DNA from: Methanosarcina sp. DH2
Lineage (GTDB): Archaea > Halobacteriota > Methanosarcinia > Methanosarcinales > Methanosarcinaceae
Assembly (NCBI RefSeq): GCF_020804225.1
Contig: NZ_WJBI01000018.1
Location: forward strand, 75,806-113,418
DNA length: 37,613 nt
Direction: 5' to 3'
Shown here: positions 4,444 to 37,613 of the stretch, piece after piece
Layout of the letters: every line of letters starts with the position of its first letter
Position numbering within the stretch: position 1 is the first letter of the stretch
Notes under the pieces: generated by a model
Database searches by the model: none
Told to the model about the DNA's origin: nothing
What the model saw: the letters and a program-made list of their open reading frames with translations, nothing else
Program-made: the position numbers and the translations under genes

Positions 4444-5058
4444 CGACCATAAACACTTAAAAGATAATTAATATTCAGGTTTAATGCCCATGTTTAATAT
4501 TCAGATAGCCTACCTTATCCTGATAGTCATAATATAAACCTGCGATTAAAGAAAACTTCATAAGCCTCTACAGGCTATAAATTTCCACGTTTTATATAAA
4601 TTGAAGATTATTAGATCAGATAGCCTAAAGAAAGATTCAATAGTATGATTTATTAAAGGCACTAATAATACTTATTTTTAATCAGCTAAAGAAAATACAT
4701 GAATGAAGAAATCCGCCGGGGCAATCTTCAAGCCTTCGATACATTATCAGAAGGCTTAAAACTCTCGACCTACCTGGCAGGGGACATAAAAATGTTTGAA
4801 TATATTGAGTAAGATGTAGGTACAGGGTACTGAACTCATTAGAATTTTTTTGCTTAAATGAACAGAAGCTACTTTATAAATTTGAGAAAACATTACTCAA
4901 TCCAGCAGGTTCAGAATATTGAACCTGTAGCAGAATATTGAACCTGTAACTTTCGGAATGCGGGCCTGTAACTAAACTAAGTGAACCTGAACTAGACTAA
5001 GTGAGCCTGTAACTAAACTAAGTGAACCTGAACTAGACTAAGTGAGCCTGTAACTCGA
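4444..5058. other. intergenic region with a 37-codon ORF and a 41-bp repeat
   Basis: This is an AT-rich spacer upstream of the histidine kinase and downstream of the kinase-phosphatase gene. It contains one short plus-strand ORF at 4699-4812 (starts MNEEIRRGNLQAFD, 37 aa) of unknown meaning. From about 4905 it becomes a series of AACCTGTAA-type repeats that run into the stop codon of the next gene. No RNA gene was seen. Confidence 0.5.
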
Positions 5059-5062
5059 CTAA
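4964..5062. repeat. 41-bp tandem repeat, 2.4 copies, overlapping a stop codon
   Basis: Two identical 41-nt units (4964-5004 and 5005-5045) begin GCCTGTAACTAAACTAAGTG. They are followed by a partial third unit to 5062. Each unit is itself two ~20-nt half-units (CTGTAACTAAACTAAGTGAA and CTGAACTAGACTAAGTGAGC). The array reaches the last codons of the minus-strand gene, whose UAG stop at 5059-5061 lies in the diverged third copy. Confidence 0.9.
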
Positions 5063-6243
5063 TTTTCTTTCCGAATATAATGATCATGAAACCCTTCATT
5101 ATTAAGAGTAAGGACTCGAAGGGATTTTCCGTTCTGGTTTTCATCGCATAAATTGAACGTTCTGCCATTTTCAACCGGGAGGTTTTCAGGATTCCTGTGG
5201 CTGTGAATTTGAAATGTATTCTCACCCGTGTTTTTATTAAAACTCTCAGCAATCAGAGATGCATCTTCAGGCTCACCCACACCTTTAATCATTTGTTCGG
5301 TCCCTATGAAGACCAGGTTTTCAGGAAGGCTGCTCAGCCCTCCGTGCGTTACAAGCACATGTTTTGTATGGAATTTATAATAAATGCAAGGTACCGTTTT
5401 CCGGTATAATTCAAGGGCGTCATTCTTTGTAATTCCTGCCTGATCGAGTTCTGGCAGGAGGTATAAGGTATCTCCAAACTCTGAGATATGGGTTTGTTCT
5501 TCACCAGTCGGATTGCAAAGGCACTTTTCATTATCCCCTTCGAGCAGGACCACATTATCTCTGCACATGACTGAGATCAGGAACTTAATGACCCTGGCAT
5601 TTTCAGCCCCGTCACCTGCGTAATCTCCAAGGAAAATATACAGGTCGCTGTCGTTCAGTCCGCATGCCAGGTATTTCATCAGCGCTGTATAACTGCCGTT
5701 TATATCTCCGATGTGATGAATTGTTCTGTAGTGAGAAAAGTCAGTGACTCTGTACTGCAGTTTCTCATGGAATTCGTAAGGCTTTATTACCGAAACAAAT
5801 GACGGCACACTCTGCCTGCTTATTATAGAGTGCATATCTTCAATTACAGCCTCCGGCACAACCTCGTATGCAGGCCTTTTCATGTTTCTTTCTTTTGCAA
5901 CCTCAAGAGGCACATCCGAAAAATCAACACAGAACGCTTTATACCTGTAAGCTTTGACGAGCTGCCTGTACTTTGCCAGATCTGCATTTCCCGCATTGGT
6001 CGCATCAAGGATTGTGAATTCCCCCTCTTCCATACGGCATTTAATAAGCGAGTAAATAAGCCCCCAGACTCTGCGGTTGATTTTCTGGGAGATTGTGGTT
6101 TGTCCGGTAACGGAGAGTACCGGAGGCTTTAAAAGAAGCCTGACCTGGTCTGAGGAAATTGTATAGGGCTCGATCCTGTTTTCTTTAACGAAAGTTGATT
6201 TGCCGGATCCGGGTATTCCTCTCAAAAATACTAAATACCTCAT
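5059..6243 (-). CDS. P-loop kinase fused to calcineurin-like phosphoesterase domain (Pnkp-like)
   Basis: This is a 394-residue two-domain protein. The N-terminal AAA-type P-loop kinase has GIPGSGKST at 9-17 and LDATN at 79-83, resembling polynucleotide or zeta-toxin-like kinases. The C-terminal metallophosphoesterase has GDING (179-183), GDYAGDG (206-212), GDNE (236-239), THGG (299-302) and HSHR (347-350). The order matches bacterial polynucleotide kinase-phosphatase (Pnkp), which goes on to a ligase domain that is absent here. Several phosphatase motifs deviate: GDxHG is GDING, GDYVDRG is GDYAGDG and GNHE is GDNE. Start: ATG at 6243 places the P-loop close to the N-terminus and has GGGG 7-10 nt upstream; TTG at 6279 and ATG at 6255 are alternatives. 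The stop is UAG, unusual in this window. RNA or DNA end repair is inferred only. Confidence 0.8.
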   Translation of the reverse strand: MRYLVFLRGIPGSGKSTFVKENRIEPYTISSDQVRLLLKPPVLSVTGQTTISQKINRRVWGLIYSLIKCRMEEGEFTILDATNAGNADLAKYRQLVKAYRYKAFCVDFSDVPLEVAKERNMKRPAYEVVPEAVIEDMHSIISRQSVPSFVSVIKPYEFHEKLQYRVTDFSHYRTIHHIGDINGSYTALMKYLACGLNDSDLYIFLGDYAGDGAENARVIKFLISVMCRDNVVLLEGDNEKCLCNPTGEEQTHISEFGDTLYLLPELDQAGITKNDALELYRKTVPCIYYKFHTKHVLVTHGGLSSLPENLVFIGTEQMIKGVGEPEDASLIAESFNKNTGENTFQIHSHRNPENLPVENGRTFNLCDENQNGKSLRVLTLNNEGFHDHYIRKEN

Positions 6244-6342: not shown

Positions 6343-6631
6343 CTTGAGCTAACCTGTCCAGAGACAGATAATCCTGAAATTCCAATCTTTTTGGTTAATT
6401 CTGCTTAAACGAAGAATACCTGAGTTAATATTACTATTGATTTTTATAATATTTAGTTAGATAAATTTATAATATTTACTCGAGGACATGCTCGAGAATA
6501 TGTACGGGGGAGAGTTGTGAATGGGGATGCCGTACTGATTTGAGCGAGCTCCTGGAGACTGCCTTTAGAGTTAGTCAATAAGAAAAGGCTCAAGGAAGAG
6601 GGAACCCTGAAAATTAATATTGGTGAAAGCT
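6343..6631. other. intergenic region with candidate promoter for the FAD/Rieske pair
   Basis: The spacer includes AT-rich TTTATAATATTT at about 6435-6475 (twice), a plausible TATA region for the plus-strand oxidoreductase. CTCGAGGACATGCTCGAG at about 6480-6497 forms an inverted repeat (CTCGAG arms). Nothing coding was seen. Confidence 0.4.
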
Positions 6632-8176
6632 ATGGCAAACCAGAAGGAATTCGATTATATCCTGCCCGGCAGGGCAGAATCATACTGGCTGGCAACTACA
6701 CCTGAGTCCAATTATCCTGCACTTCACGGGGACATTCACGTTGACATTGCGATAATTGGGGGGGGAATAGTTGGACTCACTACGGCTTACCTGTTAAAAG
6801 AAGCAGGGTTTTCGTCAATTGCAGTGATTGAAGCAGGTCATATCCTGAGAGGAGTTACAGGGCACACTACAGCCAAAGTTACATCCCAGCACCACCTGAT
6901 CTATGACCGCCTGATCTCAAAGTTCGGAAAAAGGCAGGCACAGCAGTACGCAGAATCCAATCAGGCAGCCATAGAGAAGATAGATTCTATAGTAAACTCG
7001 AGGCAGATAGACTGTGACTTTGTCCGTAAGCCTGCCTATGTTTATGCAGGCTCTGGAGATTCGACCGGGAAAATTCAAAAAGAGGTGCAGGCAGCCCGAC
7101 AACTCGGGCTTCCGGCTTCTTTTGAAGAGAAACTACCCCTGCCCTTTGAGACATATGGCGCAGTCCGTTTCAGCAATCAGGCGCAGTTCCATCCCACAAA
7201 GTACCTCAATGCACTGACAGGGGAGATTCATGGGGATGGATGCCATATCTTTGAGAAGACAAGGGCATTGAAGATAGAAGGGGAAAATCCCACAACCGTA
7301 ACAACGGATAAAGGAACCGTGACAGCACAGAAGGTTATCCAGGCAACGCATTATCCGATTCATGACAAGCCCGGGATGTTTTTCCAGCGCCTTTACCAGT
7401 CCCGTTCATACGTGCTTGGCATTCGAATTCGGGATCCTTTCCCTGACGGAATGTTCATAAATGCCGAAGAGCCTGCCAGATCCCTGCGCTCGCAGCGTAC
7501 CGATGGAGGAGAACTTGTCCTTGTAACCGGGGAGGGACACCGAACAGGTGAAGAAGAAAACGAAACTGTTCACTATCAAAATCTTGAGAAATGGGTAAGG
7601 TCCATCTATTCTGTTGATTCCGTCGATTACCGCTGGTCTACCCAGGATACCATAAGCGTTGACCATGTTCCCTATATTGGCAGGTTAACTTCAGATAATG
7701 ATAACATATTCCTTGCAACGGGATTCAAAAAATGGGGCATGACCACAGGTACGGTTGCAGCAATGATCATTACGGATATGATCCTCGGGAGGTCAAACCC
7801 CTGGGAAGAGGTTTATGACCCCTCACGTTTCAAACCGGTAGAGTCGGCAAAGACTTTGATTTCACAGGCTATTGAGGCTACCAAAGGTCTTGTGGGTGAC
7901 CGTATACTCCCCACTCATAAAGAGGCATCAGATATTGCGCCGGGGGGAGGTGCGATTGTCAAAATAGAAGGCGAAAGAGTGGCAGCCTACAGAGACCAGA
8001 ATGGGACGCTTCATACTCTTGACCCCTCCTGCAAGCACATGGGATGTATCGTTTCTTGGAACGATGCGGAAAGGACATGGGATTGTCCCTGTCACGGTTC
8101 TCGTTATAACGCAACAGGAGAGGTCATTCACAGTCCTGCCGTTTACGGGCTTTCGGAAAAGAAAGTTAAGAAATGA
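6632..8176 (+). CDS. FAD-dependent oxidoreductase with C-terminal Rieske domain (copy 1)
   Basis: This is a 514-residue fusion. The N-terminal DAO-type flavoprotein has a dinucleotide-binding motif (AIIGGGIVGLTTAYLLKEAG, near residues 38-60) followed by the acidic strand end VIEAGH. A second conserved patch, ATGFKKWGMTTGTVAA, is typical of the family's C-terminal FAD contact. The last ~90 residues are a Rieske [2Fe-2S] domain: CKH, 15 residues, CPCHGSRY, giving CxH-x15-CxxH. The architecture matches Bacillus YhfW-like proteins. The substrate is unknown; electron transfer between FAD and the Rieske cluster is inferred. ATG at 6632, with GGTG 6 nt before, aligns with the paralogue's N-terminus (MANQ versus MPDQ); the upstream TTG at 6620 is less likely. 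The next gene is a close paralogue. Confidence 0.9.
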   Translation: MANQKEFDYILPGRAESYWLATTPESNYPALHGDIHVDIAIIGGGIVGLTTAYLLKEAGFSSIAVIEAGHILRGVTGHTTAKVTSQHHLIYDRLISKFGKRQAQQYAESNQAAIEKIDSIVNSRQIDCDFVRKPAYVYAGSGDSTGKIQKEVQAARQLGLPASFEEKLPLPFETYGAVRFSNQAQFHPTKYLNALTGEIHGDGCHIFEKTRALKIEGENPTTVTTDKGTVTAQKVIQATHYPIHDKPGMFFQRLYQSRSYVLGIRIRDPFPDGMFINAEEPARSLRSQRTDGGELVLVTGEGHRTGEEENETVHYQNLEKWVRSIYSVDSVDYRWSTQDTISVDHVPYIGRLTSDNDNIFLATGFKKWGMTTGTVAAMIITDMILGRSNPWEEVYDPSRFKPVESAKTLISQAIEATKGLVGDRILPTHKEASDIAPGGGAIVKIEGERVAAYRDQNGTLHTLDPSCKHMGCIVSWNDAERTWDCPCHGSRYNATGEVIHSPAVYGLSEKKVKK

Positions 8177-8299
8177 GGTATTGGACAATAAACTAGAAAG
8201 TTCCGAGGCAGAGAACAGCCAACCAGAAGGTAATCGGTTCTATAAGGAAATTCAGGTTGGTGATACTCTATCTACGAAATAAATGAAGAGGGAATAGCG

Positions 8300-9820
8300 A
8301 TGCCGGATCAGAATGAAACTAATTATACTCTGCCTGGAAAGGCGAAATCTTACTGGGTGGCAACCACCCCGGAATCCAATTATCCTGCTCTTCCGGGAGA
8401 TATCAGGGTTGATGTGGCAATAATTGGAGGAGGAGTAGCTGGAATTACCTCAGCCTTTCTTTTAAAGGAAGCCGGAGTATCTGTTGCAGTTATCGAAGCA
8501 GACAGAATCATCACAGGGACAACCGGGAACACAACTGCAAAAATAACCTCCCAGCACAGCCTTATCTATGACCGTCTTATATCGGAATTTGGGAGAGGGC
8601 AGGCAAAACAGTACGCTGACTCCAATCAGGCAGCAATCGATAAGATTGAATATATAGTCCGTTCATGGGACATTGACTGCGACTTTTCTCACAAACCCGC
8701 TTATGTGTATGCAGGCTCTGAGGATTCTGCACAAAAGATCCTGGACGAAGTTCGAGCAGCCCGGAGCCTGGGCCTTCCAGCTTCATTCGAAGGAGATCTG
8801 CCACTTCCTTTTAAAACCTACGGTTCAGTCCGGTTCAGCCATCAGGCACAGTTTCATCCCAGAAAATACCTATGTGCCCTTGCAAAAGAGATTCCGGGAA
8901 ATGGCTGCCATATCTTTGAGAAGACCAGGGCTCTCGGAATCGAAGGAGGGGACCCTGCTGTTGTAAAAACGGACAAAGGAACCGTAATTGCAGAAAACGT
9001 AATCCAGGCAACAAATTTCCCTATTATTGATAAGCCCGGAGAGTTATTCAAAAAGCTGAAACAATCGATGTCATACGTGCTCGGAACATATATTGAAGAG
9101 CCATTCCCTGATGGGATGTTCATTAACGCTGAGAAACCTGTAAGGTCTCTGCGCTCGCAGCCCACGGAAAGAGGCGAAATGGTACTGGTAGTTGGGGATG
9201 GGCATCCTACCGGAAATGGAAACCCCACGCATGAGCACTACAGGCACCTTGAAGACTGGGTAAGGTCAATCTATAAAGTACGCTCCATTGACTACCACTG
9301 GTTGACCGAGGATGTTATATCTGAAGATAAAATTCCGCTTATAGGCAGGCTTACCCCGGAAAGTGAGCACCTGTATCTGGCAACCGGCTTTAAGAAATGG
9401 GGCATGACTGCAGGCACTGCTGCAGCAATGATTCTCATGGATACGATCCTTGGAAGGAATAACCCATGGACTGAAATATACGACCCTTCAAGATCCGGAC
9501 AGGGACCTCAGTTTTCTATGGAAAATGTATCCGGAATTGAACCGGGGCAGGGGACTATTATTGAGAAAGGGGAAGAGGAGAAAGTAGCAGTATACAGGGA
9601 CCAGCAGGGCTTACTCTATACTCTCAATCCAGCCTGCAGGCACATGGGCTGTTTTGTCTCCTGGAATGATGCTGAGAAAACCTGGGACTGCCACTGCCAT
9701 GGTTCCCGCTATAATGCTCGAGGAGAAGTTATTCAGAGCCCTGCAGTATACGGGCTCCTTGAGAAGAAAGTAAGGGGGCAGGACGAAAAACCATATTCGT
9801 ACATAAGAAAAGGTTCGTAA
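8300..9820 (+). CDS. FAD-dependent oxidoreductase with C-terminal Rieske domain (copy 2)
   Basis: This 506-residue tandem paralogue of the preceding gene is alignable from end to end (PGKAKSYWVATTPESNYPAL versus PGRAESYWLATTPESNYPAL). The FAD motif IIGGGVAG is at 41-48. The Rieske ligands are CRH, 15 residues, CHCHGSRY, all present. It lacks the ~20-residue linker (QAIEATKGLVGDRILPTHKE) that copy 1 has before its Rieske domain. It also carries its own C-terminal tail (RGQDEKPYSYIRKGS). GAGGGAAT lies about 7-14 nt before the ATG. The 123-nt gap to copy 1 and the same orientation suggest cotranscription. Both copies retain all cofactor residues, so functional divergence or dosage, not decay, is inferred. 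Confidence 0.9.
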   Translation: MPDQNETNYTLPGKAKSYWVATTPESNYPALPGDIRVDVAIIGGGVAGITSAFLLKEAGVSVAVIEADRIITGTTGNTTAKITSQHSLIYDRLISEFGRGQAKQYADSNQAAIDKIEYIVRSWDIDCDFSHKPAYVYAGSEDSAQKILDEVRAARSLGLPASFEGDLPLPFKTYGSVRFSHQAQFHPRKYLCALAKEIPGNGCHIFEKTRALGIEGGDPAVVKTDKGTVIAENVIQATNFPIIDKPGELFKKLKQSMSYVLGTYIEEPFPDGMFINAEKPVRSLRSQPTERGEMVLVVGDGHPTGNGNPTHEHYRHLEDWVRSIYKVRSIDYHWLTEDVISEDKIPLIGRLTPESEHLYLATGFKKWGMTAGTAAAMILMDTILGRNNPWTEIYDPSRSGQGPQFSMENVSGIEPGQGTIIEKGEEEKVAVYRDQQGLLYTLNPACRHMGCFVSWNDAEKTWDCHCHGSRYNARGEVIQSPAVYGLLEKKVRGQDEKPYSYIRKGS

Positions 9821-12968: not shown

Positions 12969-13067
12969 CTTGCAAAACTTCAGGCGCTTGCAAAACTTCA
13001 GAAGCTTGTAAAACCTCAAGCCTTGAGTATATCTGTGTATTGTAAATCTCAAGCCTTGAGTATATCT
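12969..13067. repeat. two small tandem/direct repeat families at regulator 3' end
   Basis: Three 17-18-nt units of CTTGCAAAACTTCAGGCG type lie at 12969-12986, 12987-13004 and 13005-13021. They are followed by a 20-nt direct repeat, CTCAAGCCTTGAGTATATCT, at 13015-13034 and 13048-13067. The second copy overlaps the stop codon of the minus-strand regulator. CAAGCCTTG is itself nearly palindromic. Confidence 0.8.
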
Positions 13068-13858
13068 CATATCTGTGTAATCTGCTCAGACAGATCTCTG
13101 TAATAGTTGAACAGTTCCTTCCCCCATTCAAGGGCGCTTTTTTCAAAGCTTACCATTTCATGGTTGTAGTATCTTCCGTCCTTAGATATCATGGATATCG
13201 AGATAAAGCGGTCAGTAACAAGGCTGGAAGCAAGTTCGATTTTATTGTCGCAGATAAATATCTGTGTATTTCCCATGTTTATAAATTCTTCTACTTCCTG
13301 CCTGTAATCAGTGACCAACTTCCTGTATATGGGTCTTTCAAGAACCAGAGAGACTTCTATTCCCTTATTTGCAAGATCCAGATAGAGTCCAGGATATCCG
13401 GGGCGGAAAAATGAAGAGACTTCCATCACAGTTTTTGACCTGTAGAGTGGATCCATTATTTCGGGAGGGTAGTCAAAAATATGAGTTCTATCAGGCACAA
13501 GTTCCATGCACTTGCCGAGCTCCCCGATCCGGTCAAGCAGGTGCGGAGGAAGGGTGCGAAGGTCCTGCCTTGCCCAGTAATCATGGTTTTCATCAAAGAT
13601 CCGGAATGTGGAGAGGAGGGGTTCCATTTTGGGAACTATAAGTTTACCTTTTACAGAAAGTTCGTAACTGTCATCTTTCTGTACCAGCAGACCGTCTTTA
13701 ATCAGAATGCGGATCTGAGCCATTATAGGGCTGGAACTGACTTCAAGTTCGGTCTTGATTTCTTCAATTGTCTTTGGTCCGTTCTTCAGGAATAAAAGCA
13801 AATTTTTCCTTTTGTCCGAAAAAAAAATCGTATCTATTAACTGCAGTTCCATACTCAT
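13067..13858 (-). CDS. Msr-type methanol regulator (winged HTH + DUF1724)
   Basis: This is a 263-residue regulator. The N-terminal ~75 residues form an ArsR-like winged helix-turn-helix (KTIEEIKTELEVSSSPIMAQ, then a DGLLVQKDDSYELS wing). Residues about 115-255 match the pattern of the FilR1/DUF1724 methanogenesis-regulator domain, including HDYWARQDLRTLPPHLLDRI and the C-terminal EWGKELFNYYRDLSEQ. In M. acetivorans, paralogues named Msr control the methanol methyltransferase isozymes, several encoded near the mtaCB operon they regulate. Here it is the distal member of a pair 0.9-2.8 kb upstream of mtaCB and on the opposite strand. Regulation of mtaCB is therefore inferred from family and position. 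No ligand-binding residues can be assigned. Confidence 0.85.
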   Translation of the reverse strand: MSMELQLIDTIFFSDKRKNLLLFLKNGPKTIEEIKTELEVSSSPIMAQIRILIKDGLLVQKDDSYELSVKGKLIVPKMEPLLSTFRIFDENHDYWARQDLRTLPPHLLDRIGELGKCMELVPDRTHIFDYPPEIMDPLYRSKTVMEVSSFFRPGYPGLYLDLANKGIEVSLVLERPIYRKLVTDYRQEVEEFINMGNTQIFICDNKIELASSLVTDRFISISMISKDGRYYNHEMVSFEKSALEWGKELFNYYRDLSEQITQI

Positions 13859-13959
13859 TCGATTCAGCCTCCCTCCGGAAAAGAGTTTGAGATTAAATAA
13901 GGCGTTAATAAAGATTATCTGAGTTATTTTGAATTGGAGAGCAATTTTCCAGCTAATAG

Positions 13960-14070
13960 AATACTTTAGTTACTCGATCAATTCCAGTTACTCGAATAAC
14001 TTCAATTACTCGAACAATTTTAGCTACTCCGGATAATCTTAATTGCTTCAGTTACTTCGGATTAAAACCT
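13960..14070. repeat. degenerate ~18-bp repeats between regulators
   Basis: Five or so imperfect units of AGTTACTCGAATAACTTCA type occupy the gap between the two regulator genes. They are followed at 14098-14155 by a second set based on TATCAGTAAATATCAG that runs into the stop of the next gene. The promoter of the distal regulator must lie between 13859 and about 13960. Confidence 0.6.
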
Positions 14071-14149
14071 CAAACCTATCTTAAATCTGTTGATACATAG
14101 TATTATCAGTATGTCAGTAAATGTTGGTGTATCAGTAAATATCAGTATA

Positions 14150-15004
14150 TCAGTGAAGGCTTAACAATAGAGATTCTGAGAAAGCTCCGTTTTCGGACGT
14201 GCATGTAAAATTGTCAATGCTCTTCTCACCTTCAACTTTTAATGCCCTTGATTTATAGAAATCAAAGAGCTCTCTTACCCAGGAAATAGCCTGAGATTCG
14301 GAACAGCACATATACTCGTGATAGAACCTGCCCTGGCTGTCAAAGAGGGAGACCATCATCCCGCGATCAGAAACAATAAGTTCGGCAATTTTTGCACCAT
14401 CCTTACAGACAGACAGTTCAGTATTCTTCATTGTTGAAAGTTTCCTTATTTTTCGTTCATAGTTGTACAGGAATTTCTCGAGTACCGATTCCGTAAAAAT
14501 AAGGGAGACCTCTGACTCAAGCCTTCCGAGCTTTGAATAAAGGGGAAGGAACTCAGGCCTGTAGAAGGATGAAAAAACCATGAGATAAAGGGAAGAGGAA
14601 AAGAATTTCAAAAGATCAGTACTGGGTTCGAATATCTGGCTGGGATCGGCTTTAACCAGATTGCAGTCCTTAAGGTCCCCTATCCTGTCAAGAAGATACT
14701 GCGGGATTCCGCCCAGGTCGTGTTCGGTCCAGTAGTCATTTTTTTCAACAAGAGTAAGAACATCGACAAGGGACCTGACTTTTTTGAATACCTGCTCTCC
14801 CATATCTGTCAGTTCATAGCTGCCATTTTTTTGAATAACCAGGTTGCTGTCTGTAAGCCTTTTGATCTGGGGTAAGATAGCTGTGGGAGAAACATCGAGG
14901 AGGATTTTAATGTCTTCCATTGTTCTGGGTTCTTCTCCCAGGAGTAAGAGAAGGTCTCTTCTTTTCTGGGAACGAAATACTATATCTATTAACTCAGGTT
15001 GCAT
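14150..15004 (-). CDS. Msr-type methanol regulator (winged HTH + DUF1724), mtaCB-proximal
   Basis: This 284-residue paralogue of the preceding regulator has the same layout: winged HTH at about 1-70 (EDIKILLDVSPTAILPQIKR), linker NDYWTEHDLGGIPQYLLDRI, and a DUF1724-type C-terminal domain with FFSSSLYLMVFSSFYRPEF and WVRELFDFYKSRAL. It has an extra ~25-residue tail (about 258-284) lacking in its neighbour. It is transcribed divergently from mtaCB, whose start is 901 nt away. Paired Msr proteins in M. acetivorans are both needed for full expression of their target operon, so a cooperating pair is plausible here. Specificity for methanol is inferred. Confidence 0.85.
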   Translation of the reverse strand: MQPELIDIVFRSQKRRDLLLLLGEEPRTMEDIKILLDVSPTAILPQIKRLTDSNLVIQKNGSYELTDMGEQVFKKVRSLVDVLTLVEKNDYWTEHDLGGIPQYLLDRIGDLKDCNLVKADPSQIFEPSTDLLKFFSSSLYLMVFSSFYRPEFLPLYSKLGRLESEVSLIFTESVLEKFLYNYERKIRKLSTMKNTELSVCKDGAKIAELIVSDRGMMVSLFDSQGRFYHEYMCCSESQAISWVRELFDFYKSRALKVEGEKSIDNFTCTSENGAFSESLLLSLH

Positions 15005-15905: not shown

Positions 15906-16682
15906 ATGTTGGACTTTACAGAGGCAAGTCTGAAAAAGGTATTAACAAGATACAATGTGGCTCTGGAAAAGGCAATGACGCCTGAAGACGCCGCAGAAGA
16001 GCTCTATCCTAAAGACGAACTTATTTACCCGATTGCAAAAGCCATCTTCGAAGGAGAAGAAGATGACGTGGTCGAGGGTCTCCAGGCAGCAATGGATGCA
16101 GGCAAGGACCCGATCACCCTCATCGACGATGCCCTCATGGTCGGTATGGGCGTTGTCACCAAGCTCTACGATGAAGGTATAATTTTCCTTCCCAATGTCA
16201 TGATGTCTGCTGACGCCATGCTCAATGGTATCGAATTCTGTAAGGAAAACTCCGAAACTGCCCCTGTAACAAAGGGAACCGTTGTCTGCCACGTCGCAGA
16301 AGGTGACGTTCACGACATCGGAAAGAACATTGTTACCGCTCTCCTCAGGGCAAACGGCTATGACGTGGTTGACCTTGGAAGGGATGTCCCTATTGACGAA
16401 GTTGTTGCATCAGTTGTTGCAAACAAGCCCCTCATGGTCACAGGTACTGCACTCATGACCACCACCATGTACGCATTCAAGGAAGTTAACGACAAGCTCC
16501 TTGAGAAGGGAATAAAGATCCCATTCGCATGCGGTGGCGGCGCAGTTAACCAGGACTTTGTGTCCCAGTATGCACTCGGTGTGTATGGTGAAGAAGCAGC
16601 TGACGCACCCAAGATTGCTGACGCAATCGTTGCAGGTACCACAGATATTGCAGCATTAAGAAACAAATTCCACAAGCACTGA
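15906..16682 (+). CDS. mtaC: methanol corrinoid protein MtaC
   Basis: This 258-residue corrinoid protein accepts the methyl group of methanol from MtaB and presents it to MtaA for transfer to coenzyme M. A helical cap domain (about 1-120) is followed by the B12-binding Rossmann domain, with DVHDIGKNIV at 134-143. His136 is the lower axial cobalt ligand, the same number as in the M. barkeri protein. CGGGAVNQDF (about 209-218) also lines the cofactor site. GGAGGT sits 8 nt before the ATG. mtaB starts 10 nt after the stop, as in all known mtaCB operons. Strong preference for favoured codons (GGT, AAG, CTC, GAC) fits very high expression in the cytoplasm. Confidence 0.98.
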   Translation: MLDFTEASLKKVLTRYNVALEKAMTPEDAAEELYPKDELIYPIAKAIFEGEEDDVVEGLQAAMDAGKDPITLIDDALMVGMGVVTKLYDEGIIFLPNVMMSADAMLNGIEFCKENSETAPVTKGTVVCHVAEGDVHDIGKNIVTALLRANGYDVVDLGRDVPIDEVVASVVANKPLMVTGTALMTTTMYAFKEVNDKLLEKGIKIPFACGGGAVNQDFVSQYALGVYGEEAADAPKIADAIVAGTTDIAALRNKFHKH

Positions 16683-16692
16683 GGTGAGTGAA

Positions 16693-18078
16693 ATGGCAGC
16701 AACAAGATTCACTAAGATGGCATATGCAAACGCAGACGAAATGAGCTTCGGCGTATCCAAGCACCCCGTAAAAGCAGGCCTTGGCCTTGAGATCGGTGCT
16801 GGCTACACAATTCCTGAAGTTAACTATGCCCCGAGACCTGAAGCAGGTGCATCCAAGGAAAAACTCGTAAAGGAATACGAGAGGATCACAACCGACATTA
16901 TGTCAAGAATGGTCCAGGTCGGTTTCCCGGCAGTTATCCTTGAAACAGAACACGTTCAGCAGATGTCCAACAACCCCTCCTGGGGAGCAGAAGTTGCACA
17001 CGCCCAGAAAACCATCATGGAAGAATACCACGATGAATACGGCATAAAGTGCGCACTTCGCCACACAATCGGTGACATCCGTGAGAACAGAGACTTCCTC
17101 CAGCTCAGAGGCGACAAGTACTCCGTCTTCCTCGAAGCATTTGAACAGTGTGCCAAGTCCGGTGCTGACCTTCTTTCCGTTGAATCAATGGGTGGTAAGG
17201 AAGTATTCGACCACGCAGTTCTCAGAAACGACATCCCCGGTATGCTCTACGCAATCGGCTGCCTCGGCTCCATGGACATGGAAATGATCTGGTCCGACAT
17301 TGCAGCAATTGCAAAGAAGACCGGCACAGTCGCAGCTGGTGACACCGACTGCGCCCAGGCAAACACCGCAATGTTCATCGCAGGCGGTCTGCTCGACAAG
17401 AACCTCGCCCACACCCTCGCAATCCTCGCAAGGGCAATTTCCGCACCCAGGTCCCTCGTTGCATACGAATGCGGTGCAAAAGGTCCGGGTAAGGACTGCG
17501 GCTATGAAAACATCATTATCAAAGCCATCACCGGTATGCCAATGACCCAGGAAGGTAAGACCTCCACCTGCGCTCACTCTGACGTAATGGGCAACCTCAT
17601 TATGCAGTGCTGTGACTGCTGGTCCAACGAGTCTGTCGAATACCACGGTGAATTCGGTGGTACCACTGTTCAGTGCTGGTCCGAGACCCTCGCATACGAC
17701 TGCGCTCTCATGAACACCGCTCTTGAAACCAAGAACGAGAAAGTTCTCAGAGACCTCTTTATGCTCTCCGACAGGTACAGAGACCCCCAGTCCTACGTGC
17801 TTGCATACGACAACGCATACAGAGTCGGCCAGGCAATTGTTAAGGACGGAGACAACATCTACCTCAGAGCAAAGAACGCTGCAATTGCATGCTGCGACAT
17901 CGTCAGCGAAGGCGCTGCAGGCAAGCTCGAGCTCTCCAGGTTCGAAACCAAAGCACTCGCAGACGCAAAGGCATCCCTGGACTCCCTCACAGACGACATG
18001 GACACGTTCATGGACGACTGCCTTACAAAGTACAAGAGCGAAGTTAAAGTCTTCCTTCCAGAGAACTACGGCTTCTAA
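16693..18078 (+). CDS. mtaB: methanol:corrinoid methyltransferase MtaB
   Basis: This 461-residue zinc enzyme activates methanol and methylates the Co(I) corrinoid of MtaC, the first step of methanol-dependent methanogenesis. Counting from the ATG at 16693, the zinc ligands Glu164 (SVESMG), Cys220 (DTDCAQ) and Cys269 (KDCGYE) fall exactly at the numbers known for M. barkeri MtaB. This supports this start over the GTG at 16684. GAGGTGA overlapping the mtaC stop serves as ribosome-binding site. The enzyme is a TIM barrel. Codon use is biased as in mtaC. The partner mtaA (methylcobamide:CoM methyltransferase) is not in the window. The gene is followed by a T-rich terminator. Confidence 0.98.
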   Translation: MAATRFTKMAYANADEMSFGVSKHPVKAGLGLEIGAGYTIPEVNYAPRPEAGASKEKLVKEYERITTDIMSRMVQVGFPAVILETEHVQQMSNNPSWGAEVAHAQKTIMEEYHDEYGIKCALRHTIGDIRENRDFLQLRGDKYSVFLEAFEQCAKSGADLLSVESMGGKEVFDHAVLRNDIPGMLYAIGCLGSMDMEMIWSDIAAIAKKTGTVAAGDTDCAQANTAMFIAGGLLDKNLAHTLAILARAISAPRSLVAYECGAKGPGKDCGYENIIIKAITGMPMTQEGKTSTCAHSDVMGNLIMQCCDCWSNESVEYHGEFGGTTVQCWSETLAYDCALMNTALETKNEKVLRDLFMLSDRYRDPQSYVLAYDNAYRVGQAIVKDGDNIYLRAKNAAIACCDIVSEGAAGKLELSRFETKALADAKASLDSLTDDMDTFMDDCLTKYKSEVKVFLPENYGF

Positions 18079-36971: not shown

Positions 36972-37613
36972 ATGCTTACACGTGAAGAGATTCTTGCTTT
37001 GTGTGCTTCAAACCCTGAAGTTATTGCTTACATTGTGAGTCTTGAAACTCAAATTAAAGAACTTACTGAAAGGTTGATAGCCTTAGAGTCTCGTTTAAAC
37101 CAAAATAGTCGTAACAGCAGTCGTCCTCCTTCTACTGATTTTTTTGTCAAGGAGAAACCTAATCCTAAGAGTCTCCGTAAAAAGAGCGGGAAGAAACCTG
37201 GAGGTCAAGATGGTCACCCAGGGACAACTCTTGATATGGTTGATGATCCTGAGTAGGTAATAGAACATTCTTTGAGTTGCTGCAAAGAATGTGGCCATAC
37301 TCTTGAGAATGTTGAAGTTGAAGCCCATGAGAAAAGACAGATCTTTGATATTCCTCCTGTAAATCTAATTGTTACAGAACACAAAAGTCAGATTAAGACC
37401 TGTCCTTACTGTGGAAGAATAAATAAAGCTGTTTTTCCTGAATCAGTAAAATATCCAGTTCAGTATGGTCCAAATATTTTAGCTTCAGCTATTTACTGTA
37501 AAAATCACCATTTTATCCCCTATGAAAGGATTTCTGAATTTTTTGAGGATATTATGGGAATAAAAATCTGTCCTGCTACGATAATTCGAGCAGAAAGAGA
37601 ATGTTTTCAGAAT
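36972..37613 (+). CDS. IS66-type transposase, partial, with in-frame UAG (candidate pyrrolysine)
   Basis: ATG at 36972 begins an IS66-like transposase. A coiled-coil leader covers residues 1-45 (SLETQIKELTERLIALESRL), then comes the family signature LNQNSRNSSRPPSTD (about 43-57) and the basic GKKPGGQDGHPGTTLD (about 73-88). Codon 95 is UAG (37254-37256). The same frame resumes VIEHSLSCCKECGHTLENVE, with a zinc-finger-like CCKECG and CPYCGR, then VKYPVQYGPNILASAIYCKN, and stays open to the window edge, 119 further codons. The DDE catalytic domain is outside the window. Because both sides of the UAG are homologous to IS66, this is one gene, either decoded through UAG as pyrrolysine or inactivated by CAG-to-TAG. 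No clear Shine-Dalgarno. Confidence 0.85.
37265..37292 (+). promoter_or_regulatory. stem-loop 8 nt downstream of in-frame UAG (PYLIS-like candidate)
   Basis: ACATTCTTTG (37265-37274) and CAAAGAATGT (37283-37292) form a perfect 10-bp stem with the 8-nt loop AGTTGCTG. It begins 8 nt after the UAG at 37254-37256, inside coding sequence. A stem-loop close behind UAG has been proposed as a pyrrolysine insertion element in methylamine methyltransferase genes, though its need is debated. Function here is inferred from position only. Confidence 0.5.

Follow-up and report, generated by a model that had tools for sequence, protein, structure and literature searches.

Analysis of a 37,613-nucleotide stretch of the Methanosarcina sp. 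DH2 genome (hereafter, the window) points to a 5'-OH polynucleotide kinase carrying a pseudophosphatase module, which would derive from a captured phage-type enzyme of three domains; we put the probability of this reading at roughly 60%. The gene lies on the minus strand at 5059..6243, stop codon included, and encodes a protein of 394 amino acids beginning MRYLVFLRGIPGSGKS. Its start is the ATG at 6243, and the same methionine is conserved among orthologues. Residues 1-165 (5749..6243, minus strand) constitute a P-loop 5'-OH polynucleotide kinase domain of the type found in Clostridium thermocellum Pnkp (CthPnkp) and T4 Pnk, with the P-loop GIPGSGKS at residues 9-16 (6196..6219, minus strand). 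Residues 166-394 (5062..5748, minus strand) correspond to a calcineurin-type phosphatase fold whose catalytic centre is predicted to be disabled. Pfam profiles delimit AAA_33 at residues 4-139 (2e-20) and Metallophos at residues 174-353 (3e-8), and PF00149 is matched at 34.7 bits against a cut-off of 21.5.

The initial annotation had listed a set of metallophosphoesterase motifs, GDING, GDYAGDG, GDNE, THGG and HSH, and re-translation of the minus-strand ORF at 5059-6243 reproduces every one of them. Along the protein, and all on the minus strand, GDING (residues 179-183, 5695..5709) replaces GDIHG; GDYAGDG (residues 206-212, 5608..5628) replaces GDxxDRG, with D207 kept and both the Asp and the Arg of DRG lost; and GDNE (residues 236-239, 5527..5538) replaces GNHE. 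THGG (residues 299-302, 5338..5349), which contains H300, is retained here and in 16/16 copies of the genus, HSHRN (residues 347-351, 5191..5205) contains the retained H349, and C366 (5146..5148) replaces a conserved acidic residue. GDING, HSHRN and C366 were placed by alignment to 4j6o. By aligning the family profile to this same chain and reading the offset from it, we take N182, G210, D211, D237, N238 and C366 to be the equivalents of CthPnkp H189, D236, R237, N263, H264 and D392 (Cth numbering). Likewise, D207 is presumably the bridging metal ligand, H300 and H349 the second-metal ligands, and residue 182 the position of the first-metal His. Both altered residues of GNHE had been called ligands at first; the substitutions stand, and ligand status applies to the Asn only. 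In this motif the Asn is a metal ligand and the His is catalytic, binding no metal (PMC3407115).

These replacements are spread across the genus. Residues were counted in 16 Methanosarcina orthologues and in 76 relatives from outside the genus (vL109 is among the 76 for the main motifs and was omitted for the C-terminal acid and for E68 because its extracted frame is misaligned). The altered positions are conserved at 91-100% in about 75 of the outside relatives. At the GDxHG His position (182), the genus has Asn in 11 copies, Ala in four and Val in one, whereas outsiders have His (68/76) or Gln (7/76). Position 210 (DRG Asp) has Gly in 15 copies and Asp in one (Asp in 75/76 outsiders), and the neighbouring Arg position (211) is Ser in nine, Arg in four and Asp, Lys or Thr in one each (Arg in 75/76). 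The GNHE Asn position (237) is always acidic, with 14 Asp and two Glu, against Asn in 76/76 outsiders, and the His that follows (238) varies among Asn (5), His (5), Arg (3), Gln (2) and Ser (1), against His in 75/76. The C-terminal acidic position (366) is Cys in 15 genus copies and Glu in 93% of outsiders. Consequently, no copy has the complete two-metal ligand set D-H-D-N-H-H, with H182 and N237 replaced in 16/16 and D180 in 2/16. The joint deviation first noticed in DH2 is therefore common to all 16 orthologues: close homologues share the changed motifs and none is wholly canonical, which refutes a mutation private to one copy, and the recurrence of the changes across the genus argues against sequencing noise. 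At the fifth motif, 14/16 orthologues have HGHRN rather than HSHRN.

Not everything in the site is lost. D207, H300, H349, R350 and N351 are invariant across the 16 copies, so that the half-site for the second metal (D207, D/E237, H300, H349) is retained and that for the first metal is lost. Since the first metal site has no His left and both the catalytic Arg and the catalytic His drift, ordinary phosphomonoesterase activity appears unlikely. The kept half-site makes a single bound metal possible, and the survival of its four residues makes some metal-dependent activity of the domain possible as well. We consider it unlikely, however, that the domain is still an enzyme, acting on a different substrate, for example a phosphodiester, through one metal at D207, D/E237, H300 and H349 or through an altered pair of metals. 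Consistent with such an enzyme, no copy has more than a conservative replacement at the second-metal residues, while those of the first metal drift, and residue 237, acidic in every copy, could still bind metal. In addition, according to PMC3407115, CthPnkp lacking the GNHE His gains activity on bis-p-nitrophenylphosphate. Nevertheless, the GDxHG His and D210 (15/16) are replaced clade-wide and positions 211 and 238 vary, unlike what a newly tuned site would look like, and the retention of four sites is weak evidence in a phosphatase domain where about 41% of the columns do not vary within the genus anyway. It is quite unlikely that one metal operates in the Asp-Asp/Glu-His-His half-site, whether in a new mononuclear metallophosphoesterase or in a metal-dependent RNA-end sensor gating the kinase.

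The initial annotation had left a choice between altered specificity, for example towards cyclic phosphodiesters, and a non-catalytic domain. The genus-wide losses favour the latter, and retuning to 2',3'-cyclic phosphodiesters is disfavoured. According to PMC3407115, the hydrolysis of 2',3'-cAMP by CthPnkp drops strongly when H264 is replaced by Ala, Asn or Gln, and the equivalent position in Methanosarcina drifts among Asn, His, Arg, Gln and Ser; the loss of the GDxHG His in all copies also counters this candidate. The same paper cautions that the specificity rule for the GNHE His is not general (PMC3407115).

In the AlphaFold2 model (from an alignment of 43 sequences; mean pLDDT 88.9, poor only in the loop 245-260), both domains keep the folds of CthPnkp. 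The top structural match is the CthPnkp phosphatase 4j6o (Z 21.0, rmsd 2.8 A over 213 residues), followed by its kinase 4gp7 (Z 19.6, rmsd 1.9 A over 154 residues). As medians over sequence pairs, dN/dS comes to 0.105 in the kinase, to 0.134 and 0.118 in the two segments of the phosphatase, and to 0.386 in the loop 244-285; these values are rough because synonymous sites are near saturation in many pairs (median synonymous distance about 1). The low ratios indicate constraint on the phosphatase domain and say nothing on the absence of catalysis. Lost catalytic residues are thus combined here with purifying selection on the domain, as in a pseudophosphatase. In this regard, STYX and MK-STYX, pseudophosphatases of the protein tyrosine phosphatase family, likewise keep a phosphatase fold with replaced catalytic residues; they are, however, unrelated by descent to the Methanosarcina module, which is fused to a kinase predicted to be active.

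The gene is present in 17 of 31 Methanosarcina genomes, DH2 included, with orthologues 66-82% identical; it is absent from 13, and in one further genome (G011) a relic of 63 bases occupies the position of the gene. The gene is therefore dispensable in the genus. Two copies are frameshifted, at about 1626 in L010 and about 1500 in L016, in short homopolymers (AAAAA in G014, GGGGG in G022), which may be sequencing errors or real decay. A third copy (L006, in G029) is intact except for an in-frame TAG about 21 codons from its end; TAG may be read as pyrrolysine in Methanosarcina, and this codon is possibly passed by such read-through. Frameshifts, TAG, the relic beside the same neighbour and the 13 genomes without the gene would all fit a slow decay of the whole captured gene, the phosphatase changes being the first losses and no role being left. 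Even so, dN/dS stays near 0.1 in both domains across deep divergence and the remaining 13 copies not cut by a contig end have full-length ORFs, which makes such decay distinctly improbable.

Outside the genus, a search of 295 genomes of the phylum gave full-length matches in Methanosarcina only, the rest being partial and confined to the metallophosphoesterase region. Pattern scans of the contig collection, which detect close relatives only (the deep whole-genome search covering Halobacteriota), returned Methanosarcina and one 48-residue start in a Succinivibrionaceae MAG. In the latter (L031, 2689-3447), the contig ends 48 residues into a kinase relative, 65% identical, that sits just after a methyltransferase-like ORF.

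The relatives that do extend over the protein belong to mobile elements. Relatives at 25-46% identity, mostly full length, were recovered by tblastn against phage and plasmid records and by scanning viral contigs; nearly all are about 720-870 amino acids long, and those scanned end in a T4-Rnl1-type RNA ligase domain, PF09511. The protein matches PHROG 8238 (RNA ligase) at 7e-98, with residues 1-390 on profile positions 1-389 of 737, and stops after the phosphatase. PHROG 8238 proteins occur in SPbeta-like phages, Herelleviridae, an Alicyclobacillus phage and Bacillus plasmids. They share with it the kinase-phosphatase order, about 30-46% identity over 394 residues for most, and the HGHRN and THGG motifs, but they carry a C-terminal PF09511 and the canonical GDxHG, GDxxDRG and GNH[ED] that the Methanosarcina copies lack. 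CthPnkp, of the Pnkp-Hen1 RNA repair system, is alike in domain order and in both folds, and differs in having a ligase and in the six residues replaced in our protein, which scores 51.1 bits with the bacterial Pnkp model TIGR04075 (cut-off 750).

In a maximum-likelihood tree built without five altered columns, all Methanosarcina rows form one clade (SH-aLRT 100) nested within the phage/plasmid family. This clade adjoins the Alicyclobacillus phage with a support of 90, so that the donor is not settled, and its neighbours are phages of Bacillota. A single clade in this position suggests that the gene was probably acquired once, the ligase being lost and the phosphatase disarmed afterwards. The two losses need not coincide, as indicated by an Aneurinibacillus plasmid protein (402 aa, L048) that is 41% identical and also has two domains and no ligase, although its phosphatase motifs are all canonical. 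The absence of the ligase domain, already pointed out in the initial annotation, extends to the DH2 genome, in which a profile search found no PF09511. Neither PF09511 nor a search with a whole Bacillus plasmid homologue revealed a split ligase or a ligase remnant. Separate ligases do exist in this genome, namely RtcB and a PF09414 RNA ligase, both unlinked to the kinase gene.

Turning to the kinase, K15, S16, D32, R35, R119 and R123 are present in all intact genus copies, and we take them to align with CthPnkp K21, S22, D38, R41, R116 and R120 (Cth numbering). Together with the AAA_33 match, this agrees with the original description of an intact P-loop kinase and with membership in the 5'-kinase domain of bacterial Pnkp. 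Since the catalytic residues are all kept, 5'-kinase activity is likely. Glu occupies position 68 (E68) in 96% of relatives and Lys in every copy from the genus, and KTI12 and PSTK profiles match weakly (1e-4 and 6e-4); both observations would suit a kinase of the PSTK/KTI12 branch acting on a tRNA-bound or small molecule. Nonetheless, the CthPnkp kinase and T4 Pnk match best in both sequence and fold and the nearest relatives are fused to RNA ligases, so that we hold such a substrate to be highly improbable.

The gene stands alone, divergent from an FAD oxidoreductase-Rieske gene (6620..8176, plus strand) that is its neighbour in most genomes. Two tandem paralogues of this oxidoreductase, at 6620-9820, have a patchy distribution among Methanosarcina genomes that tracks that of the kinase gene: kinase gene and oxidoreductase occur together in 16 genomes, each without the other in two, and neither in 11 (Fisher p 1e-4), counting as present a paralogue in G014 (66% identical) and the relic in G011. 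Close relatives among these genomes are not independent, however, and linkage alone can explain this co-distribution. Among the scanned ORFs of the window there were no RNA-repair genes and no Hen1-like Pfam match, the flanks being the FAD-Rieske and sensor kinase genes. PADLOC gave no defence-system match for the protein, and a defence label was dropped for this reason. At the gene's 3' end lie two exact tandem 41-nt units and a partial third (4964-5062), the last of which overlaps the stop codon, and an additional 18-nt direct repeat lies at 4912-4948. Elsewhere in the window, a corrinoid protein and MtaB methanol methyltransferase pair (15906-18078) is preceded by two FilR1-type regulators (13067-15004). 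Near its end, Rfam PYLIS_5, the pyrrolysine insertion sequence of transposase 1 (37254-37353, plus strand), lies inside a transposase-like ORF (36972-37613, plus strand) that is open only if a single TAG is read through and runs past the window end.

These findings allow us to propose a model in which a phage or plasmid protein with 5'-kinase, 3'-phosphatase and Rnl1-type ligase domains would have been captured once within Methanosarcina and would then have shed its ligase domain. Its phosphatase would have been disarmed by replacement of the first-metal His, the GNHE Asn (by Asp or Glu) and the DRG Asp, together with the DRG Arg, the GNHE His and the C-terminal acid in most copies. What remains would be a 5'-OH polynucleotide (RNA) kinase; its pseudophosphatase, still folded, may serve as a non-catalytic module that binds a partner or the end of an RNA, and the second site that survives may contain one metal. 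Once phosphorylated, 5'-OH ends could no longer serve RtcB and would become available to an RNA ligase or nuclease that depends on a 5'-phosphate.

The phage three-domain origin, the spread within a single genus and the retained second-metal half-site go beyond what had been noted initially. RtcB needs 5'-OH ends, and the model raises the puzzle of why an RtcB-using cell retains an enzyme predicted to phosphorylate them. If this reading is right, an archaeon took over a phage RNA-repair enzyme and kept its 5'-kinase while the phosphatase became a non-catalytic folded module, and the genus would offer a natural experiment in the origin of a pseudophosphatase.
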